Below, one piece after another: positions 7,520 to 17,324 of a DNA stretch of 43,306 nucleotides. The DNA is from SAR202 cluster bacterium. GTDB taxonomy: Bacteria; Chloroflexota; Dehalococcoidia; Lucifugimonadales; VGZY01. The stretch lies in the NCBI GenBank assembly GCA_016872355.1, contig VGZY01000018.1:1-43306 (forward strand). The letters are read 5' to 3'. Made by a program: the position numbers and the translations under genes. Each line of letters begins with the position of its first letter. Position 1 is the first letter of the stretch. Below the pieces are notes generated by a model that saw only the letters and a list, made by a program, of their open reading frames with translations, ran no database searches and was not told where the DNA came from.

Positions 7520-8233
7520 TTGAAGCTCGGCAGGCCGGTCCACATTGCAGAGGGCATCTGGCAGGTGCGGGCGCTCGGCTCGCGCGTGACCGCCGTGGAG
7601 AGCGGGGACGGCCTGCTGCTTGTGGACGCCAGCTCACGCGGCAGCCTCGCGCCCATCAGGGACGGCCTCGCCTCCGCCGGGCTCCCGCTGGACCGGGTGT
7701 CGCTCGTCGCCGTGACGCACCACCATCCCGACCATACCGGCGGGTTGCGCGAGCTGGTGGATGCGACCGGCGCACCCGTGGCGGCGCACCCTGCTGACGC
7801 CGGTGTGGTGAGCGGCGCCGTGCCCGCGCCGAACCCGTTCCGCCGCCGTTACGCCGCCCGGATGTCCGGCCCGGCCGTCGCGAGGCTGAACGGACGCGCC
7901 TGCGAGGTGGTCTACGAGATGCAGGACGGCGCGGCCGTGCCCGGCTTCGACGGCGTCGTCGCCATCCACACGCCGGGCCACACGCCCGGGAGCGTGTGCA
8001 TCTACTTGCCGGACAGGAAGGCGCTGATAGTGGGCGATGCCCTGCAGAACCGGTTCGGCCGCCGTCTTAGCCCGCCATCATCCTTGTTCACCGAGGACGC
8101 GGCGTCGGCGATGCGCTCGCTGCGGCGGCTACTGGAGCTGGAGTTCGAGACGATCGTGTTCAGCCACTTCCCGCCGGTCCGCAGCGGGGCGCGCGATGCG
8201 CTAAGTGCGATGCTGGAGGGGCGACGCCGCTAG
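7520..8233 (+). CDS. Metallo-beta-lactamase-fold hydrolase (glyoxalase II-like)
   Basis: The TTG start at 7520 is preceded by GGAGGG and gives 237 residues. The metal-binding motif VTHHHPDHTGG (His67, His69, Asp71, His72) is present. It is followed by HTPGHTPGSVCIY (third metal-site histidine), IVGDAL (bridging aspartate) and FSHFPP (final histidine). The order is that of a binuclear-metal glyoxalase II/MBL-fold hydrolase; the substrate cannot be assigned. No signal peptide is visible, so it is probably cytoplasmic. Longer in-frame upstream sequence runs antisense through the ATPase gene and is not believable as coding. The stop shares the four bases CTAG with the stop of plsY on the other strand. 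Confidence 0.88.
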   Translation: MKLGRPVHIAEGIWQVRALGSRVTAVESGDGLLLVDASSRGSLAPIRDGLASAGLPLDRVSLVAVTHHHPDHTGGLRELVDATGAPVAAHPADAGVVSGAVPAPNPFRRRYAARMSGPAVARLNGRACEVVYEMQDGAAVPGFDGVVAIHTPGHTPGSVCIYLPDRKALIVGDALQNRFGRRLSPPSSLFTEDAASAMRSLRRLLELEFETIVFSHFPPVRSGARDALSAMLEGRRR

Positions 8234-8808
8234 CCGGCCTGCCGGAGGTGCTGGTTGCGGTACTGCACGCGCGCCTTGAGAAGCACGATGCCGCCCGCCA
8301 GCAGGACGCCGAAGACGCCCACAGGGTCGCTCTGGAGCGCCCATCCGGCCAGGGGGGTTACGATGAAGTACGACGCCCCGGTGTACCCGGCGTTCCGGGT
8401 CGCCACGAGCACCAGCAGCGCGATCACGGCCCCCACCGGCACGCCCAGCGGCGCCAGGCCCGCCGTGGTGCCCATCGCAACCGTCACGCCGGTGCCGCCC
8501 TTGAAGCCCTGCGTGACCGGGAAGATGTGCCCCGCCAGCACGGCCGCCATCGCCACCAACCCCACCCACGACGGCCACCCCATCAGGTAGACCGGCAATG
8601 TAGCCGCGAGCCCCTTCAGGATATCCAGTCCGAAGACCATCAGCCCGAACTTGCGCCCCGCCTCGCGAAAGATGTTCGCCGCGCCAGGGTTGCCGGTGCC
8701 GACCGTCCTGATTTTCACCCCCGCGCGGCGCGCGACCAGGTCACCGGCAGGCACCGTGCCGATGAAGTAAGCGATGATTGTCCAGACGACGATCAGCGGC
8801 AAGCCCAA
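8230..8808 (-). CDS. plsY: Acyl-phosphate:glycerol-3-phosphate acyltransferase PlsY
   Basis: The 192-residue membrane protein has the PlsY signature segments in order: IGTVPAGDLVARRAG near the N-terminus, RTVGTGNPGAANIFREAG (about 34-51) and GHIFPVTQGFKGGTGV (about 93-108), with about five hydrophobic helices. It transfers an acyl group from acyl-phosphate to glycerol-3-phosphate, the first acylation in phospholipid synthesis, in the cytoplasmic membrane. The start is TTG, supported by GGAG six bases upstream. It lies 51 bp after the last lipoprotein gene and is probably the distal gene of that operon. PlsX, its usual partner, is not in this window. Confidence 0.93.
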   Translation of the reverse strand: MGLPLIVVWTIIAYFIGTVPAGDLVARRAGVKIRTVGTGNPGAANIFREAGRKFGLMVFGLDILKGLAATLPVYLMGWPSWVGLVAMAAVLAGHIFPVTQGFKGGTGVTVAMGTTAGLAPLGVPVGAVIALLVLVATRNAGYTGASYFIVTPLAGWALQSDPVGVFGVLLAGGIVLLKARVQYRNQHLRQAG

Positions 8809-8859: not shown

Positions 8860-9942
8860 TTATGGTATCTCGGCGGCGTTGTCCACTACTTCTATTTTGA
8901 ACTGATAGGCAATGTCGCCGACCGAGAATTTGGCAAGGAATTCCAGAACATATACGCCCGGCGGCAAGTCAACATTGAAAGGCTTCATCAAGTCCGGGGT
9001 GATCACCGCCTGTCCAGTCATTAGCGGGGTTGCCTGCGCAACCGTATAGACACCGCCGGAGATATTGGTGACTGGTAATTCCGAGACAGCTTCAATGACA
9101 ACCTCTCCACCTCGCTTTACGATCACCGGAGTCGCGTTGGCGAAGTCCGGCCAGCGTATAACGTCCCCACGCCTGCGCACGCCCTGGCCGATGGGCCAGC
9201 AGTGGCTCCCTGCCCGCCCGCCGTCCACAACGTCGCCGTACCTGATCTCGAATCGCGGCAACGGAGGTGGCGGCGCAACGCCTCCCGAAGGAATTGGCCC
9301 GATAATAACTTGTGGCCGGTCTCTGTACTTCACTTCCAACTTGAAGTCGTACAGCGCTGAAACCATCAACCACTCTCCGCGCACGGTGAGAGAATACACG
9401 CCCGGGTACAGGTCCACTTCGAGCGGCCCGCCGGAGCCGAACTCTATGAACTTGATGTCCGTATCCAGCCAGGGGGAGCTTTGAGATACACGGGATATCC
9501 ATCCAGACAGGGTAGATGTGCTATACCCCTCCGTGACTTGGAACGCAATGGACTCACCTCCAAAGACGGAAACAGCGCGCGCCGCATCGAATCCCTCCCA
9601 GGGTGCTAACGTGGCACACACGTTGCCCATGTAGACGCCGGATTCTTGTTTAGGGAAGTACCGGCATTGTACCCTGCGATTGCCCATAACCCGGGTGTCT
9701 CCGAAGTGGACGAACAACGAAGGTAAGTCAGGCATCGGCGTTGCGGGCGGCAAAGGCGTCAGCGCCCCTTGCACCCCGGAAGGCGGGACATACCAGATGC
9801 TGGAAGGATCACTCGTCCACGGCGTCGGCGTGGGCTCAGACGTCGCCGCCGGCAGCGGCGTCCACGGGTCGGCGGCTGCCGGCGAACATGCGGCGATCAG
9901 CCCCGAGAGTGCCAACGCGACGATTGTGTACAGCGTTCTCAA
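8860..9942 (-). CDS. Lipoprotein with two type-A domains (uncharacterised)
   Basis: The product has 360 residues. TTG start with GGAG five bases upstream. The signal is MRTLYTIVALALSGLIAACS with lipobox IAAC (Cys19), then DPWTPLPAAT and a Pro/Thr linker. Two copies of one ~125-residue module follow (about 76-204 and 229-353). Both have an opening x-GD-x-R/V stretch, a central aromatic/Gly-Ser-Thr segment and an ending of the form LEVDLYPGVYSLTV / FNVDLPPGVYVLEF followed by Y-x-F-K-(I/L)-EV. The second has the SHCWPIGQG segment. I call this module A; it looks all-beta and I cannot give it a family name. The protein would be anchored outside the membrane. A, without the rest, recurs in the genes at 10666 and 11331. 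Confidence 0.8.
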   Translation of the reverse strand: MRTLYTIVALALSGLIAACSPAAADPWTPLPAATSEPTPTPWTSDPSSIWYVPPSGVQGALTPLPPATPMPDLPSLFVHFGDTRVMGNRRVQCRYFPKQESGVYMGNVCATLAPWEGFDAARAVSVFGGESIAFQVTEGYSTSTLSGWISRVSQSSPWLDTDIKFIEFGSGGPLEVDLYPGVYSLTVRGEWLMVSALYDFKLEVKYRDRPQVIIGPIPSGGVAPPPPLPRFEIRYGDVVDGGRAGSHCWPIGQGVRRRGDVIRWPDFANATPVIVKRGGEVVIEAVSELPVTNISGGVYTVAQATPLMTGQAVITPDLMKPFNVDLPPGVYVLEFLAKFSVGDIAYQFKIEVVDNAAEIP

Positions 9943-9992
9943 AGTTGCTCCTCGACACTCGCGGCCGGCTCAGACCAAAATTGCGCCCATGG

Positions 9993-10514
9993 TCAATCGA
10001 AGCTGGTGCTGCCGCCTTGCCCCATGGCATGTATGAGCATTCCGATGCCGGTCCAGACAAGGTATACGCCTCCCGTAATGGCAGAAAACACATGGAGCCC
10101 ACGAGGGACAGGAGTGCACGCCTTCAGGTGTCGCGCGTACTCGTCAATAATGGCCTCGCGCCTGCCAATTACTACCGCCCCAACCACAATTAGCGCAAGG
10201 CCCATGATCGCCCAGGACACCCTTCCCACGGTTTTGAAAACAGAACTGCTCTCGATGCTGGGCGGGATGCCTGGCAAAGCCTCAATCGCAACAAGTCCGG
10301 CAATGGCGGCCCACGCGGCAAGGACGACTATCCCGAAGACGAACGCGCGTCGCCTGGCGCCGTTCCGACCGGCAACAGCCGTTGTCGCAGACTCATAGGG
10401 TCGCTTGGCATAAAGTAGGGCCGCAACATAAGCTCCACGCCGCTTAACACAAGACATGCCAATGTACAACGTAGCCAGAGCGACGAGTATCAATTCGATA
10501 TTTGGGACGAGCAT
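9993..10514 (-). CDS. Four-helix membrane protein, unknown function
   Basis: The 173-residue product has four hydrophobic segments: about 6-23 (IELILVALATLYIGMSCV), 57-80, 96-119 and 142-168. Arg-rich loops lie after helices 1 and 3, such as KRRGAY and GRREAI. The ATG at 10514 is preceded by GGAG with a five-base gap, so translation is well supported. I do not recognise a family. It sits inside the lipoprotein array, between the single-A and double-A genes, and could be a membrane partner of them, but this rests on position only. Confidence 0.72.
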   Translation of the reverse strand: MLVPNIELILVALATLYIGMSCVKRRGAYVAALLYAKRPYESATTAVAGRNGARRRAFVFGIVVLAAWAAIAGLVAIEALPGIPPSIESSSVFKTVGRVSWAIMGLALIVVGAVVIGRREAIIDEYARHLKACTPVPRGLHVFSAITGGVYLVWTGIGMLIHAMGQGGSTSFD

Positions 10515-10645
10515 TTGCTCTCCAGCCTGGTAGGTGTTTCAGAAATCATGAGGCCGGAATTGCGAAGCGCCGTGTCGAGAAAAAACCCGCCATTAGGCGT
10601 GTGAGGCTTCGCACAACCTCCATGTTCGTCGCTCAAATATGGGAT

Positions 10646-10672
10646 GGGTATCCCGGCGGCGTTGACTAGTAC
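10646..10672 (-). pseudogene. Out-of-frame remnant of a type-A domain end
   Basis: These 27 bases match 22 of 27 bases in 8863-8889, the C-terminal codons of the double-A lipoprotein. Read on the minus strand in another frame they give VLVNAAGIP, against EVVDNAAEIP there. They overlap the last codons of the single-A gene. This suggests that gene once continued into a second A domain, most of which was deleted. Confidence 0.5.
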
Positions 10673-11334
10673 CCTAACGGCGCCGTCCTTGGCGACGGTC
10701 TCGGGTGAGGCGTCGGCGTCGGATGCGGTATGACGTCCAACCTGAAGTCGTAATATACCCTGCCGTTGGGCCACGTGCCTTTCAAGATCAGCGCACAGGA
10801 CGACGGAAAGAGATCAACCATGAGCGGCTCACCGGAGACAATCTCCTTCATCATAGTGCCCGTCTCAAGCCAGGGCGTCCTCTTCATCGCGATGTAAATG
10901 CCGCCGGTGATGGTTGAAGTCGAATAACCATCGGATAGGACAAAGGTCAGCATATCGCCGCTCAAGACCGGCACCGGGCGCGCGGTGTCGAAGCCGTCCC
11001 ACGGCGCGAGCGATCCGATCTGGGCATGGGTATACGTGCCGTCCTCTTTGACTCCGAAGTACCTGGCCTCCACGCGCCTGTTGCCCAGCACCCGGCTGTT
11101 GCCGGCCAGAACGTACATCCACGGCAGGTCCGGCTCGGCGGTCGGCGCAGGCAGCGGCGTCACAGGCTCGCTCGTCGGCGGCGGCTCCATGGCTGTCGCT
11201 GTGTGCGCCGGCAGCGGCGTCCACGGCTCGGCCGCCTGTGCGGAGCACGAGATGGTGAGCATTGCTAAAGCAACCAGTGGCAGCGCACCGAAGAATCCGA
11301 GTCCGGTTGGCCTTCTCGGAGCTATCGCCCTCAC
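10666..11334 (-). CDS. Lipoprotein with one type-A domain, probably C-terminally truncated
   Basis: The product has 222 residues. The GTG start overlaps the previous gene's stop by four bases (GTGA). The lipobox is TISC (Cys30), followed by SAQAAEPWTPLPA and a second VTPLPAPTAEPDLPW copy. One A domain spans about 72-201 and is closest to the first A domain of the gene at 8860: both share RVxGNRRV, APW(E/D)GFD and GYSTST. After it comes PHPTPTPHPRPSPRTAP, a linker that normally leads to another domain, but the frame stops at once. Remnant sequence of an A-domain end lies out of frame just at the stop. The protein may still be exported and functional with one domain. Confidence 0.75.
   Translation of the reverse strand: MRAIAPRRPTGLGFFGALPLVALAMLTISCSAQAAEPWTPLPAHTATAMEPPPTSEPVTPLPAPTAEPDLPWMYVLAGNSRVLGNRRVEARYFGVKEDGTYTHAQIGSLAPWDGFDTARPVPVLSGDMLTFVLSDGYSTSTITGGIYIAMKRTPWLETGTMMKEIVSGEPLMVDLFPSSCALILKGTWPNGRVYYDFRLDVIPHPTPTPHPRPSPRTAPLGY
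11207..11249. repeat. 43-bp lipobox-region block, copy 1 (copy 2 at 12376-12418)
   Basis: The block matches 12376-12418 at 42 of 43 bases. Both encode the lipobox Cys and the following SAQAAEPWTPLPA segment. More diverged copies lie in the genes at 8860 (near 9841-9890) and 12467 (near 13078-13130). Nearby coding sequence is far less similar, which points to recent duplication or gene conversion of the signal region. Confidence 0.8.
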
Positions 11335-12470
11335 TCTATCACCTCAATCAGGAATCGGGCCGTCGCCGCGCCAACCGGCCAGCCCGCATGTACGTCGAGC
11401 ACGTACCTCCCGGGAGGGATATCGAGGCGGAACGGGCCATTCAGGTCTGGCAAGAGCACCAGTGAGTCACCTCGTGGCACCGGCTGCGTCGTGCCCGGGT
11501 AGATCCCGCCCGTCAGCGAGTCGGGCCCATCGTGCGCCTCCACCTGCACCTGGACCAGAGCGCCCTTCTTCACCCTGATTGGCTCCCCAGCGGCTATCCG
11601 CACCCAGCTATCCGTGTTCTCGCAGCTCAGGCCTTTGGAAGCGGGTCCTGCCCAGCAGTAGCTCGTTATCTCGCCCACCGTCGCGAGGCCGTCGCCGTGG
11701 CGCAGGCTGAACGACGGGAACGGATATGTCGGGTACGGAGTCGCCGTAGGCGTGGGCGTTCGGGTCGCCGGGTCCCGCACTGCGTCCTCTATGCGTTTGA
11801 TCAGCTCCGCCTCCGAGATGCCTTCCACGTCTGCCATATGCCAGGAGTACATCCCAACTATCTGCACCCTACCGTCCACTATCTTGAGCCGGTACACGGA
11901 GGAAATGTTTATGTACGTGTTCGGCAGTTGCCCGACCGGCCCCACGAGCAAAATGAAGCGCTCGCCGTCCTCCATCGGAAACAAGCGGCATTCAGAGCGG
12001 TGAAGGAGCGTGAAGCGCCCATTTCCGGCGCCCTTGAAGTAGCGGTCGACCTCAATCTCGTAGGTCGTGAACCACCCAAAGGCCAATTGCTCAAGGTCTA
12101 CCGTCAGGAACTTCGATTCGTTATTGACGTTTCGGACCGGCAGCGTGGAGACGACGAGCGTGGACTTCGTTACCGCCTCGAACAGCGGCATGGAATTGTC
12201 GGGACCCGTTCGGAGGCACGACGGTCGGATAGCGGGAAACGGCGTCGGCGTCGGCGGCGCTGGCGTGCGGGTGGGCCTGACCTCCGGCGCCCGCGCCTGC
12301 GCCGCCGGGGCCGGAGCGGCGGGCGGGAGCTGCACAAGCAACGGTCCCGGCGTAGCCGAAGGCTCTGCAGTCGCCGCCGGCAGCGGCGTCCACGGCTCGG
12401 CCGCCTGCGCGGAGCACGCGGCTAAAAGGCACGCGCCGACGGCAAGAGTGACGACCAACGTCACTTTCAT
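11331..12470 (-). CDS. Lipoprotein with a type-B domain followed by a type-A domain
   Basis: The product has 379 residues. The ATG at 12470 overlaps the upstream gene's stop (ATGA), which fixes the start. The lipobox is LAAC (Cys19), then SAQAAEPWTPLPAATAEP and a Pro/Ala/Thr linker to about 80. Residues about 94-231 are the second module type, B: an N-terminal LFEAVTKSTLVV segment, a YEIEVDRYFKGAG strand, a cysteine in the SECRLFP segment, GERFILLVG, and a final LIKRIEDAV helix. After a TPTPTATP linker comes a full A domain (253-378) with YCWAGP, IRVKKG and FRLDIPPGRYVLDV. B recalls TIMP/netrin-like OB folds ('VFVGKV...KG...C...GERYLV'), a weak inference. This is the only gene in the array joining B to A. 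Confidence 0.82.
   Translation of the reverse strand: MKVTLVVTLAVGACLLAACSAQAAEPWTPLPAATAEPSATPGPLLVQLPPAAPAPAAQARAPEVRPTRTPAPPTPTPFPAIRPSCLRTGPDNSMPLFEAVTKSTLVVSTLPVRNVNNESKFLTVDLEQLAFGWFTTYEIEVDRYFKGAGNGRFTLLHRSECRLFPMEDGERFILLVGPVGQLPNTYINISSVYRLKIVDGRVQIVGMYSWHMADVEGISEAELIKRIEDAVRDPATRTPTPTATPYPTYPFPSFSLRHGDGLATVGEITSYCWAGPASKGLSCENTDSWVRIAAGEPIRVKKGALVQVQVEAHDGPDSLTGGIYPGTTQPVPRGDSLVLLPDLNGPFRLDIPPGRYVLDVHAGWPVGAATARFLIEVIE
12376..12418. repeat. 43-bp lipobox-region block, copy 2
   Basis: Partner of 11207-11249, with one mismatch. It encodes the end of the signal peptide and the first mature residues of the B-A lipoprotein. Confidence 0.8.
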
Positions 12471-13174
12471 TGGGCCTGCTCCCTTACCGACTTCCAAATA
12501 AGTCCGATCAACTCGTCGGCGGGTATTCCCTCAAGCGTCCGCATTGGCCCGGCATTGGGGCTTACGATGTGGACCACATCGCCTCTAAGATCGAAGTGGA
12601 ATACGCTCGATGCGTTGACAAATATGTGCGGTGCCCCATGTACCGGGCGCAAGAGCATTAACACCGGCCCTTCGCCTTCGACAAGGTACTCTCTGCATGG
12701 GGAAGAGAACCTGGCGAAAGTGATACTGGCCGGGCCTTTCCCTTTGAGATATCTAACGTCAACCAGCTCGGTCAGAACAAGTCGCTGAATTGAGTCCACG
12801 GTATGTCCCAGCATAACAAGCTCGTCCACGTTCGCCCTGCCTGGCATTGGACTCCCGATCACTATGGCCGTAGAGGACGCCACTGCCTGCTCGAGAGTCA
12901 TGTAATACCACGGTACGAAGTCATAGGAACAATGTACTGTCGGTTGGGGTGGCTCCGGTAGCGGCCGCGCGGGACGCGGCATCGCCGGCTTTTCCGGCGG
13001 CCCGCTAGTGGCTGCGGGTTCGGGAGGCGCCGCTGTAGCCGCGATGCTGACCGGGAGCGCAGTCACGGCGGGGCTCGTCGCCGCCGGCAGTGTCGTCCAG
13101 GGCGCTGCGGCCTGCGCGGAGCACGCGGCGGCGGCGAGACCTCCCACAGCAAGAGCAAGCAACCTGTGGACCAC
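12467..13174 (-). CDS. Lipoprotein with one type-B domain
   Basis: The product has 235 residues. The GTG start at 13174 has GGAG about nine bases upstream. The signal MVHRLLALAVGGLAAAACSA has lipobox AAAC (Cys18), followed by APWTTLPAATSPA and a Pro-rich linker to about 80. The B domain (about 82-234) shows MTLEQAVASSTAIVIG, DVRYLKGKGPASITF, a cysteine in SSPCREY, GEGPVLMLLRP and the closing LIGLIWKSVREQ helix. It has two cysteines (VHCSYD and SSPC) that could pair outside the cell. Its function is unknown. The stop overlaps the B-A gene start by four bases. Confidence 0.78.
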   Translation of the reverse strand: MVHRLLALAVGGLAAAACSAQAAAPWTTLPAATSPAVTALPVSIAATAAPPEPAATSGPPEKPAMPRPARPLPEPPQPTVHCSYDFVPWYYMTLEQAVASSTAIVIGSPMPGRANVDELVMLGHTVDSIQRLVLTELVDVRYLKGKGPASITFARFSSPCREYLVEGEGPVLMLLRPVHGAPHIFVNASSVFHFDLRGDVVHIVSPNAGPMRTLEGIPADELIGLIWKSVREQAQ

Positions 13175-13187
13175 TTAAGCACGCTCC

Positions 13188-13982
13188 TCACTTTGAGGAC
13201 GCCTCAATGCGGGATATTAACGCATCGACGGACATGCCACGAACGTCGGCCATCTTGTCGGTTCCCTGCCCCACCACGATGGCCGTTCCGCCGGAGATGT
13301 CGATGTAGTTATCGACCGTCACCCGGAAGTAGGCGTCGGTAATCTGCGTATGGTGGCGAAGAAACACGATAATCCGGCCTTCCTCCGGAAGCGGGTACCG
13401 GCAGTCCGGCATTCCTGACCGCCTGACGATTCCGTTCGGTTGCGCCATGATGAACTCCTCGAACTGCAGGACTTTCACCCTGGCGTCACCTTCGTCTTTC
13501 AGATACTTTTCCACTCCGACCTCGTATAACACGACGCGGGCAGTCAACCCGGGGCCTCCGGCGGATTCCAGCCTTTCCTCTCTCCCAATCAGCTTCCCGA
13601 GCACGACGATCGCGGAGTTCGCGACGGCCTCCTCCAGCGTTACGTACATTTCGCGGATGAAGTCTCCAACGGCCTGCGTGCATGGCGTGGGCGCCGGCGT
13701 GGCCGAAAAGGCGAGGACTGTTGGCGTGGAAACCGGAGTTGCGGAAGCCGAGGGCAGAGGAGTTGGGGTTGGCGTTGGCGTCATGATCTGGGCGGGTTCG
13801 GTGGGGACCGGGGTCTCAGGTATGGCTGTGGCCTGGACCAAAGGTGTAGCCGTTGGAGTGGGCATACTCGCTGCTGGTATGGCAGCCTCTCGCGTGGGAG
13901 TGCCCGGCGCATCCGAAACGCAGGCTACCATCAACAGCAGCAGTAACGGTCCACTTACCGATACCTTTATGGCATTGTGCAT
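13188..13982 (-). CDS. Lipoprotein with one type-B domain, first gene of the array
   Basis: The product has 264 residues. The start at 13982 is chosen because it gives a good lipoprotein signal, MHNAIKVSVSGPLLLLLMVA then Cys21. An in-frame ATG at 14042 would add 20 polar residues before it. A long linker rich in TPTPTPTPLPSASATP (about 24-105) leads to the B domain. That has YVTLEEAVANSAIVVLGK, VLYEVGVEKYLKDEG, a cysteine in MPDCRYP, EEGRIIVFLR and a closing ALISRIEASSK helix. The frame stays open upstream antisense to the VPS10-like gene, but that part has no coding character. It is divergent from that gene with about 130 bp between them and is probably transcribed first in the operon. Confidence 0.77.
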   Translation of the reverse strand: MHNAIKVSVSGPLLLLLMVACVSDAPGTPTREAAIPAASMPTPTATPLVQATAIPETPVPTEPAQIMTPTPTPTPLPSASATPVSTPTVLAFSATPAPTPCTQAVGDFIREMYVTLEEAVANSAIVVLGKLIGREERLESAGGPGLTARVVLYEVGVEKYLKDEGDARVKVLQFEEFIMAQPNGIVRRSGMPDCRYPLPEEGRIIVFLRHHTQITDAYFRVTVDNYIDISGGTAIVVGQGTDKMADVRGMSVDALISRIEASSK

Positions 13983-14111: not shown

Positions 14112-17100
14112 ATGGTTTCCATAAAGCCGACTGTCGACCCTTCCATGCTCGGGACGTTGCGGTGGAGGAACATCGGCCCGCACCGCGGGGGCCGCGTCGT
14201 GGCCGTCGCGGGACACCCCACCGAGTACGCCACCTTCTACTTCGGCGCGTGCGCGGGCGGCGTGTGGAAGACGGACGACGGCGGCAACTACTGGCGCAAC
14301 GTGTCGGACGGCTTCTTCAACACGGCGTCCGTCGGCGCAATCGCCGTCGCGGAGTCGGACCCCAACGTCATCTACGCCGGAATGGGCGAGGCATGCGTCC
14401 GCGGCAACGTCGCGCAGGGCGACGGCGTCTACAAGTCCACGGACGGCGGCGCCACATGGTCGCACGTGGGGCTGGAGCTCACGCGGCACATCTCCCGCGT
14501 CCGGGTCCACCCCGCCAACCCGGACATTGTGTACGTCGCCGCTCTCGGCAACATCTTTGGCCACGATGGCAGCCGTGGCGTGTTCCGGTCGGTAGACGGC
14601 GGGCGCACCTGGGCGAAGGTGCTCTTCCGCAGCGAGAAGGCGGGCGCGTGCGACCTGGTCATGGACCCGGCGAACCCCCGCGTGCTGTACGCCGCAACGT
14701 GGGAGAACCTCCGCCGTCCCTGGAACTTCTCCAGCGGCGGCCCGGACAGCGCTATCTACAAGACAGAGGACGGCGGCAATACCTGGAAGGAGATCACCTA
14801 CGCCCACTGCCTGCCCAGGGGGCCGCGCGGCCGCGTCGGCGTCGCCGTCGCACCGAAAAGGCCCGGCCGCGTGTGGGCGATCGTCGAGTCGAAGGACCGC
14901 GGCATCTACCGCTCCGACGACGGCGGCGAGTCGTGGGAGATGCTCACGAACTCCGCCAACCTCCACCAGCGGCCCTGGTACTACAGCCACCTTGTCGCCG
15001 ACCCCATGGACCCGGAGACGGTCTATGTCGTCGGCTCGAAGATGTACCGATCGAACGACGGCGGCCGCACCTTCACTGAGGTCACGACGCCGCACGGCGA
15101 CAACCACGACCTCTGGATCGACCCGCGCAATACGCAGCGCATGATCAACGGCAACGACGGCGGGGCGTGCGTGAGCTTCAACGGCGGCGCTACCTTCTCC
15201 ACCATCTACAACCAGCCCACCGCGCAGATATACCGAATGGACGCCGATAACCAGTTCCCCTACAAGGTCTACGGCACGCAGCAGGACAACTCCGCCATCA
15301 GCGTCCCCAGCCGCTCCTACAAGGGCGCAATATTGTTCTCCGAGTGCGAGTTCGTCGGCAGCTCGGAGAGCGGCCAGGTGGCCGTGCACCCCTCCGACCC
15401 TAATATCGTCTTCACCGGCGCGATCGGCAGCTCCGACGGCGGTGGGGACGCGATGCTGCGATACGACAGGCGCACCGGGCAGACGCAGGTGGTGTCGGTA
15501 TGGCCGGAGTACGTCTGGGGCTGGGGCGTGCAGGACCACAAGTACCGCTTCCAGTGGACCTACCCCCTGCTCTTCTCCCCCCACGACCCCAACACGATTT
15601 ACGCCGCCGCGGAGGTGGTGTTCCGCTCGACGGACCAGGGGATGAGCTGGAAGGCGTTCACGCCGGACCTTACCCGCAACGACCGTACGAAGATGGGGCC
15701 GTCCGGCGGCGACATCACGCACGACACGACGTTCGTGGAGCATTTCGGGACGATATTCTCGTTCGCGGAGTCGCCGCACAAGAAGGGCGTCTTCTGGGCA
15801 GGCTCGGACGACGGCCTCATCCACATCTCCAAGGACAACGGCAAGACCTGGAAGAACATCACCCCGCCGGGCCTGCCCGAGTGGTCCACGGTGAACATGA
15901 TCGAGCTTTCGCGCCATGACCCGGCGAAGGCGTACGTGGCGGCGACCCGGTACCGGCTGGACGACCACAAGCCGTACCTGTTCAAGACGAGCGACTACGG
16001 CAAGACCTGGACGAAGATCGTGAGCGGCATCGACGACCGCAACTTCTCACGCGTGGTCCGCGAGGACACGGAGAAGCCCGGCCTGCTGTACGCCGGCTCC
16101 GAGTACGGCATATACGTCTCGTTTAACGACGGCGAGTCGTGGCAGTCGCTTCGCGGCAACCTGCCCGCCGTGGGCGTTCACGACCTCAAGGTCAAGGGCA
16201 ACGAGCTTGCGGCGGCGACGCACGGCCGCTCGTTCTGGGTGCTGGACGATCTTGCCGTGCTGCGGCAGGCCGCCGACTCGATACGCGGCGAGGCGGCGCA
16301 CCTGTTCGCTCCGGCGAGCGCCTACCGGCTGGCGCCGGACATGGCCGCGGGCCGCACGACGGGACCCGGGACGAAGTACATGCTGCGCCTTGGCGCGGCG
16401 GCGCTGTGGCACGAGAAGAAGCACCCCAACGGCGACGTGGAGGAAGTGTTCCTGGACGCCGGCAAGAACCCGCCGGAGGGCGTCGTCGTCCACTACTACC
16501 TCAAGGACAGGCCCGAGGGCGAGGTAACGTTGACGTTCCAGGACGAGGCGGGCAACACCATCCGCACCTTCACGCCGAAGCCGCCGGAGGAAGCGAAGCC
16601 CTCAACCGGCCCTGCGCCGGTGGCAGGCAGCGCCAGGTCAAAGAAGCGCTCCGAGAAGTTCATCCACGTGGAACCAGGCATGAACCGGTTCGTGTGGGAC
16701 ATGCGCTACCCGGGCGCGACCCGCATCAATGGGCAGGGCGACATCGATCCCGGCCACGTCGGGCCGTACGCCGTGCCCGGCAGGTACAAGGTCACGCTGA
16801 AGGTCGGCGTGAAGAGCTACACGCAGCCGTTCGAGCTGGTCAAGGAACCGCGCATCGCCACAATCGCCGAGGACTTCAAGGCACATTTCGACCTGCTCAT
16901 GCGGATCCGCGACAGGGTGACCGAGACACACGAGGCGATCAACCGCATCCGCTCCGTCCGCCGCCAGATCGAGGAGTGGTCGGAGCTTGCGAAGGGCAAG
17001 GAGCCTCTGGCCGCGCTCCGCAAGGACGCGGAGGGCATCTGCGCCAAACTCTCCGAGATCGAAGAGGAGCTAATCCAGACAAAGTCCATCGACGGCATGG

Positions 17101-17324
17101 ACGTCATCGCCCTGCCCACCCGCATCAACGCCAAGATATCGGAGCTTGCGTCCGTCGTCGCCAACTCGGATACGCGCCCAACCAGACAGTCGTATGATGT
17201 ACTGGAGCACCTCAGCGCAAAGCTGGCCGAGCAGACCGACAAGCTGAAGGCGCTGATAGACGGCGACGTGGCAAAGTTCAACATGGAAGTGCGGAAACTG
17301 AATGTGCCGGCGATAGTGGGGTGA
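14112..17324 (+). CDS. VPS10/sortilin-like BNR-repeat propeller protein
   Basis: The 1070-residue product starts at an ATG preceded by GAGGAG. It contains at least ten Asp-box (BNR) motifs of the SxDxGxTW type, including KTDDGGNYW, KSTDGGATW, RSVDGGRTW, KTEDGGNTW, RSDDGGESW and KTSDYGKTW. These span roughly residues 45-680 and build a large (probably ten-bladed, VPS10-like) propeller. The last ~300 residues include a beta-rich part (FVWDMRYPGATRI, VPGRYKVTLKV) and a helical segment rich in EAINRIRSVRRQIEEW. The family is common in environmental bacteria and usually annotated as glycosyl hydrolase or sortilin-like; no enzymatic activity is established. No signal peptide is visible, which is unusual, since many relatives are exported. 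Confidence 0.9.
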   Translation: MVSIKPTVDPSMLGTLRWRNIGPHRGGRVVAVAGHPTEYATFYFGACAGGVWKTDDGGNYWRNVSDGFFNTASVGAIAVAESDPNVIYAGMGEACVRGNVAQGDGVYKSTDGGATWSHVGLELTRHISRVRVHPANPDIVYVAALGNIFGHDGSRGVFRSVDGGRTWAKVLFRSEKAGACDLVMDPANPRVLYAATWENLRRPWNFSSGGPDSAIYKTEDGGNTWKEITYAHCLPRGPRGRVGVAVAPKRPGRVWAIVESKDRGIYRSDDGGESWEMLTNSANLHQRPWYYSHLVADPMDPETVYVVGSKMYRSNDGGRTFTEVTTPHGDNHDLWIDPRNTQRMINGNDGGACVSFNGGATFSTIYNQPTAQIYRMDADNQFPYKVYGTQQDNSAISVPSRSYKGAILFSECEFVGSSESGQVAVHPSDPNIVFTGAIGSSDGGGDAMLRYDRRTGQTQVVSVWPEYVWGWGVQDHKYRFQWTYPLLFSPHDPNTIYAAAEVVFRSTDQGMSWKAFTPDLTRNDRTKMGPSGGDITHDTTFVEHFGTIFSFAESPHKKGVFWAGSDDGLIHISKDNGKTWKNITPPGLPEWSTVNMIELSRHDPAKAYVAATRYRLDDHKPYLFKTSDYGKTWTKIVSGIDDRNFSRVVREDTEKPGLLYAGSEYGIYVSFNDGESWQSLRGNLPAVGVHDLKVKGNELAAATHGRSFWVLDDLAVLRQAADSIRGEAAHLFAPASAYRLAPDMAAGRTTGPGTKYMLRLGAAALWHEKKHPNGDVEEVFLDAGKNPPEGVVVHYYLKDRPEGEVTLTFQDEAGNTIRTFTPKPPEEAKPSTGPAPVAGSARSKKRSEKFIHVEPGMNRFVWDMRYPGATRINGQGDIDPGHVGPYAVPGRYKVTLKVGVKSYTQPFELVKEPRIATIAEDFKAHFDLLMRIRDRVTETHEAINRIRSVRRQIEEWSELAKGKEPLAALRKDAEGICAKLSEIEEELIQTKSIDGMDVIALPTRINAKISELASVVANSDTRPTRQSYDVLEHLSAKLAEQTDKLKALIDGDVAKFNMEVRKLNVPAIVG

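Follow-up and report, generated by a model that had tools for sequence, protein, structure and literature searches.

Which function can be assigned to a row of five related lipoprotein genes in the genome of a SAR202 cluster bacterium? The genes are located between positions 8860 and 13982 of the window, by which we mean the whole analysed stretch of 43,306 nucleotides. A preliminary description had reported five lipoprotein genes on one strand, built from two recurring modules (A and B) in the arrangement B, B, B-A, A and A-A in the order of transcription. Five minus-strand ORFs were confirmed within this region, and the arrangement was borne out with three B and four A copies. P0001 (13188..13982, minus strand, as for all genes of the row) codes for a lipoprotein in which a long linker rich in Pro and Thr accompanies a single module B (B1, residues 101-264, bases 13191-13682). 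P0002 (12467..13174) combines a PWTTLPA leader with one module B (B2, residues 81-235), and P0003 (11331..12497) is the B-A protein (B3, residues 92-243; A, residues 259-388), for which the ATG at 12470 is a more likely start than the TTG at 12497. P0004 (10666..11334) has one module A (residues 69-203) and P0006 (8860..9942) is the A-A lipoprotein. Between the latter two genes, within the array, lies P0005 (9993..10514), which codes for a membrane protein of roughly four hydrophobic helices; Pfam and NCBIfam gave no match for it and PHROGs no significant one. The plsY gene for glycerol-3-phosphate acyltransferase (8230..8808; PF02660, E 3.3e-30) is a neighbour outside the array proper. Both P0005 and plsY share the direction of the lipoprotein genes, as had been described.

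Several 4-base overlaps of stop and start codons had also been reported. These were found at two junctions, namely ATGA at 12467-12470 (P0002/P0003) and GTGA at 11331-11334 (P0003/P0004), whereas the other junctions along the row from P0001 to plsY are separated by gaps of 13, 151, 50 and 51 bases. Tight coupling is therefore suggested for P0001 to P0004 only. A search for a terminator between P0004 and P0005 gave a stem no better than those of shuffled sequences (z -1.3). All five lipoproteins have a signal peptide with a terminal lipobox-like Cys, read by eye and not by a predictor (MVAC, AAAC, LAAC, TISC and IAAC), as well as long Pro/Thr-rich linkers. The PWTxLPA segment described for most of them just after the lipid-anchor Cys is present in four of the five and absent from P0001. 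The five proteins would accordingly be lipid-anchored and, as far as the lipobox alone indicates, exposed on the surface.

For analysis of the paralogy, pairwise alignments of the modules only were scored against 300 shuffles. The B copies align with z values of 20 (B1-B2), 22 (B2-B3) and 17 (B1-B3), and the A copies with 63 (A4-A6a), 26 (A3-A6b), 9 (A3-A6a) and 7 (A3-A4). All pairs of A with B stay below z 3, the highest being B3-A6a at 2.6. Each module thus aligns within its group far above shuffles and not across groups, in line with the proposal of two recurring modules, and A and B appear to be unrelated, with no convincing similarity. Two types of A occur. Type 1 comprises P0004 and the first A of P0006 (60 of 133 residues identical), type 2 comprises P0003 and the second A of P0006 (44/126), and the latter A also resembles P0013, a protein from another family of the order. 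Departures from the sequence signatures quoted earlier for the modules include P0004, which lacks PPG as well as both Cys of module A, and P0003, which reads YFKG.

That the modules are unnamed was upheld, since neither A nor B gave a match above the curated cut-off in Pfam or NCBIfam. Sequence searches of Pfam, NCBIfam, PHROGs and the PDB yielded nothing credible, and the weak matches fell in low-complexity linkers, ubiquitins or an arbitrium receptor. In profile searches of the genome, A copies were found only in this cluster, and the same was observed for B. An identical gene order, suggested as a check of the array, did not turn up in searches of 98 and 250 genomes from the order, a draw that contained no other representative of family f1. 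Among the genomes searched, 13 of the 250 from the order have module A, as do 7 of 294 from the class and 12 of 301 from the phylum; each count includes the window's genome. In a genome from another family of the same order (G062), a module A lipoprotein even has the same DPWTPLPAAT leader. The lipoproteins of other Chloroflexota, with the pattern YCW...C...DLxPGxY...YxFxIEV, share the Cys pair, the CW motif and the C-terminal motif with the A modules of the window. Those examined contain a single A or, often, an A with a different second domain, and tandem A-A and B-A were encountered only here. Judged from these sequences, module A is a widespread unnamed lipoprotein domain of the Chloroflexota; recurring across the phylum, it merits a family entry. 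In several Chloroflexota families (loci L047-L054 and L065-L070) module A precedes another conserved domain, likewise unnamed, C...SL.DP.RTA.D..N..GCKFNKPI... In a further lipoprotein (genome G232, L032:1060-1920), A is joined to another segment, WPDACLG...CLQAITPGYQV...YHTD, apparently a separate unnamed domain.

Relatives of module B outside the window are sparse and distant. One of them is P0011 of genome G085, with a sequence identical to that of Candidatus Lucifugimonas marina JH1073; Lucifugimonas belongs to the same order as the window's genome. Another is located in Thermalbibacter longus (L062:3995-4508), where the record has a frameshift that divides it into two halves, both of which align to B. 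A genome-wide DNA scan for B relatives returned only two loci because the alignment has few conserved stretches. A profile made from only the two outside relatives finds P0001 of the window (E 1.7e-5), which is independent support for the presumed homology of the B domains.

The preliminary description had guessed at a TIMP/netrin-like OB fold for module B, and structure prediction supports this. The NTR fold consists of a five-strand barrel of the OB type with flanking helices. An initial AlphaFold model, of the B-A protein P0003 with six window sequences, was weak (mean pLDDT 60); even so, its B part gave matches to TIMP-1, agrin NtA and complement C345C domains. For B only, a model predicted from P0002 together with the two outside relatives had a pLDDT of 79.4 and a pTM of 0.78. 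With this model, Foldseek returned agrin NtA first (E 4.4e-4, prob 1.00) and TIMP-1 next, and the best 50 rows of VIA-align were all NTR-type domains. Agrin NtA aligned with Z 10.8 and 2.9 A over 111 of 128 residues, followed by TIMP-1/2/3 with Z 8-10, PCOLCE with 8.3 and complement C345C with about 7-8. No NTR protein was found by sequence search of the PDB, so the relation of B to NTR domains rests on predicted structure. Module B is thus predicted to have an NTR fold, i.e., a barrel like those of the TIMP-1/2/3 N-domains, agrin NtA, the PCOLCE NTR domain and complement C345C. It differs from these known domains in sequence (5-16% identity) and in being part of a stalked bacterial lipoprotein. 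There is no conserved His in module B.

Module A resembles a beta-sandwich of the Ig type, at lower confidence than the fold of B. The A region of the B-A model, with a core pLDDT of 75-89, matched LPMOs, RhoGDI and Ig-like domains. Its Cys pair is kept in 13 and 12 of 14 rows, which suggests a disulfide. With VIA-align, AA9/AA10 LPMOs were the best matches (Z up to 9.7, 3.2 A over 119 residues), as would be expected if module A were an active enzyme similar to polysaccharide monooxygenases. However, a conserved His is absent across the 14 A modules, the stalk precedes A so that signal cleavage would not free an N-terminal His, and RhoGDI matches similarly (Z 7.8). The LPMO match therefore signifies only a shared sandwich, and an enzymatic A of this kind is extremely improbable. 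As an AA9/AA10 LPMO, module A was rejected, the histidine brace with its N-terminal His being missing.

We consider it probable that the array encodes lineage-specific, lipid-anchored and non-catalytic binding proteins on Pro-rich stalks, which have diversified within the lineage. The lipoprotein signal would direct their export, and the N-terminal Cys would hold them at the membrane. A long Pro/Thr-rich stalk would then display one or two compact heads, the NTR-fold B and/or the Ig-like A, the latter with a Cys pair conserved in most relatives. The most likely targets of the heads would be macromolecules outside the cell or in its envelope, and proteins or secreted proteases would be favoured as ligands because these are bound by well-studied NTR domains. 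Duplication, joining of B to A and loss of one A may account for the diversification. We infer the display outside the membrane, the absence of catalysis and the binding role of the heads; a common fold with NTR domains does not establish the function of B.

NTR and TIMP-like domains are known mainly from animals. TIMPs inhibit via the free N-terminal Cys of a CxC motif, whose amino group chelates the zinc of the metzincin, and the TIMP N-domain has six Cys in three disulfides. Protease inhibition by this mechanism, one of the two roles guessed at earlier, is contradicted by the B copies. These read CTQ, HCS and SCL, CxC being absent, and B begins some 60-80 residues past the lipid-anchor Cys. 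In P0011 of Lucifugimonas a CDC is present, but it is likewise internal. Only two Cys are conserved over the three window copies, in contrast to the six of TIMPs. With their internal position and no CxC, the B copies have no access to the zinc-chelating mechanism, and canonical TIMP inhibition by B is unlikely. In the literature searched, Tim of Listeria (LMRG_00714) is the sole bacterial case with an NTR/TIMP-like domain, by fold prediction; it is a lipoprotein which is cleaved by its partner metzincin Mtz, and its authors found no prior record of a TIMP-like protein in bacteria (PMC8235301). Like Tim, the B proteins of the window are bacterial lipoproteins with a predicted TIMP-like domain. 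Unlike Mtz-Tim, the array has no adjacent metzincin, comprises several paralogues and includes a fusion to module A. An array of NTR-fold lipoproteins in SAR202-related Chloroflexota would broaden the Listeria case and offers a testable family.

Could the B heads nevertheless be TIMP-like regulators, which inhibit a secreted metzincin or are released by it, as in Listeria Mtz-Tim? A genome search for HExxHxxGxxH gave two matches, on contigs C6 and C51, and a reversed-pattern control gave an equal number; the motif is absent from C18, the window's contig, and from the surroundings of the examined B relatives. The C51 match lies within no ORF of at least 150 aa in its frame, whereas that on C6 (HELGHFIGLGH) belongs to a credible matrixin segment (PF00413, E 2.6e-8). 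At this locus, separate from the array (L078:946-2382, about 33685-35121 of contig C6 in the same genome, G000), P0015, a secreted or membrane-anchored protein distantly similar to module B, lies 21 bases downstream of the matrixin-like frame. A zinc-ribbon ORF, transposase-like by eye, is located upstream of this frame. P0015 gave no significant BLASTP match to B. With hhalign, the B profile scored 32 against P0015, compared to a mean of 13.1 and a maximum of 23.7 for 150 shuffles and to at most 19.2 for ten unrelated proteins, which makes P0015 a probable distant relative of B. No relatives of P0015 were found in viral contigs, plasmids and phages. The matrixin and P0015 pair resembles the Listeria mtz-tim arrangement, and the predicted fold of B is nearest to those of agrin NtA and the TIMPs. 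With P0015 as a probable relative of B, a role connected with proteases can be envisaged, for the array by analogy only. On the other hand, the matrixin-like frame has one in-frame TGA in its upstream part, and the published TIMP likeness of Tim is based on Phyre2 (PMC8235301). Taken together with the missing CxC and free N-terminal Cys of B, this leaves regulation of a metzincin by the B heads unlikely, although it is the foremost alternative to the preferred reading. Adhesion, the other role guessed at earlier, is less likely again; here the heads would act as adhesins or envelope organisers that bind glycans, peptidoglycan or other cells. Agrin NtA, the closest structural match of B, binds laminin, A is a sandwich-type domain, and a lipid anchor with a long stalk fits such a display, but the array proteins contain no glycan-binding family recognised by Pfam or NCBIfam. 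Quite improbable is the wider proposal that the array represents expanded bacterial TIMP-type regulators of secreted metalloproteases, of the cell's own or of neighbouring cells, with some of the NTR heads fused to Ig-like domains. If true, it would make the TIMP-metzincin logic of animals a wider bacterial theme.

Evolution by duplication, fusion and loss, close to the duplication, fusion and fission proposed earlier, fits the domain types and a putative remnant at the 3' end of P0004. A 53-base leader repeat encoding CSAQAAEPWTPLPAAT occurs in four genes whose heads differ, with 83-89% identity. Its reference copy is located in P0003 (12370..12422, minus strand), and further minus-strand copies are found in P0002 (13077..13129, encoding ACSAQAAAPWTTLPAAT, with 89% identity to that of P0003), P0004 (11201..11253, 87%) and P0006 (9842..9894, 83%). 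Between the leaders of P0003 and P0004 the same codon is used at 12 of 15 identical residues, compared to 23/57, 18/42 and 11/48 in homologous heads. The higher codon sharing in the leader, although based on small numbers, suggests that leaders were exchanged or converted after the heads had diverged. At and beyond the stop codon of P0004, out of frame, lies a minus-strand copy (10647..10672) of the C-terminal end of P0006 (8864-8889), with 85% identity over 26 nt. The alignment score of 33 was reached by none of 1000 shuffles, and one control region scored 29. This P0006-like piece suggests that P0004 was once an A-A gene which lost its second A, the 3' piece being a possible remnant. Adjoining the array on the opposite strand (window 14112-17324), a Sortilin-Vps10/BNR repeat protein of 1070 aa is encoded (PF15902, E 5.7e-35).
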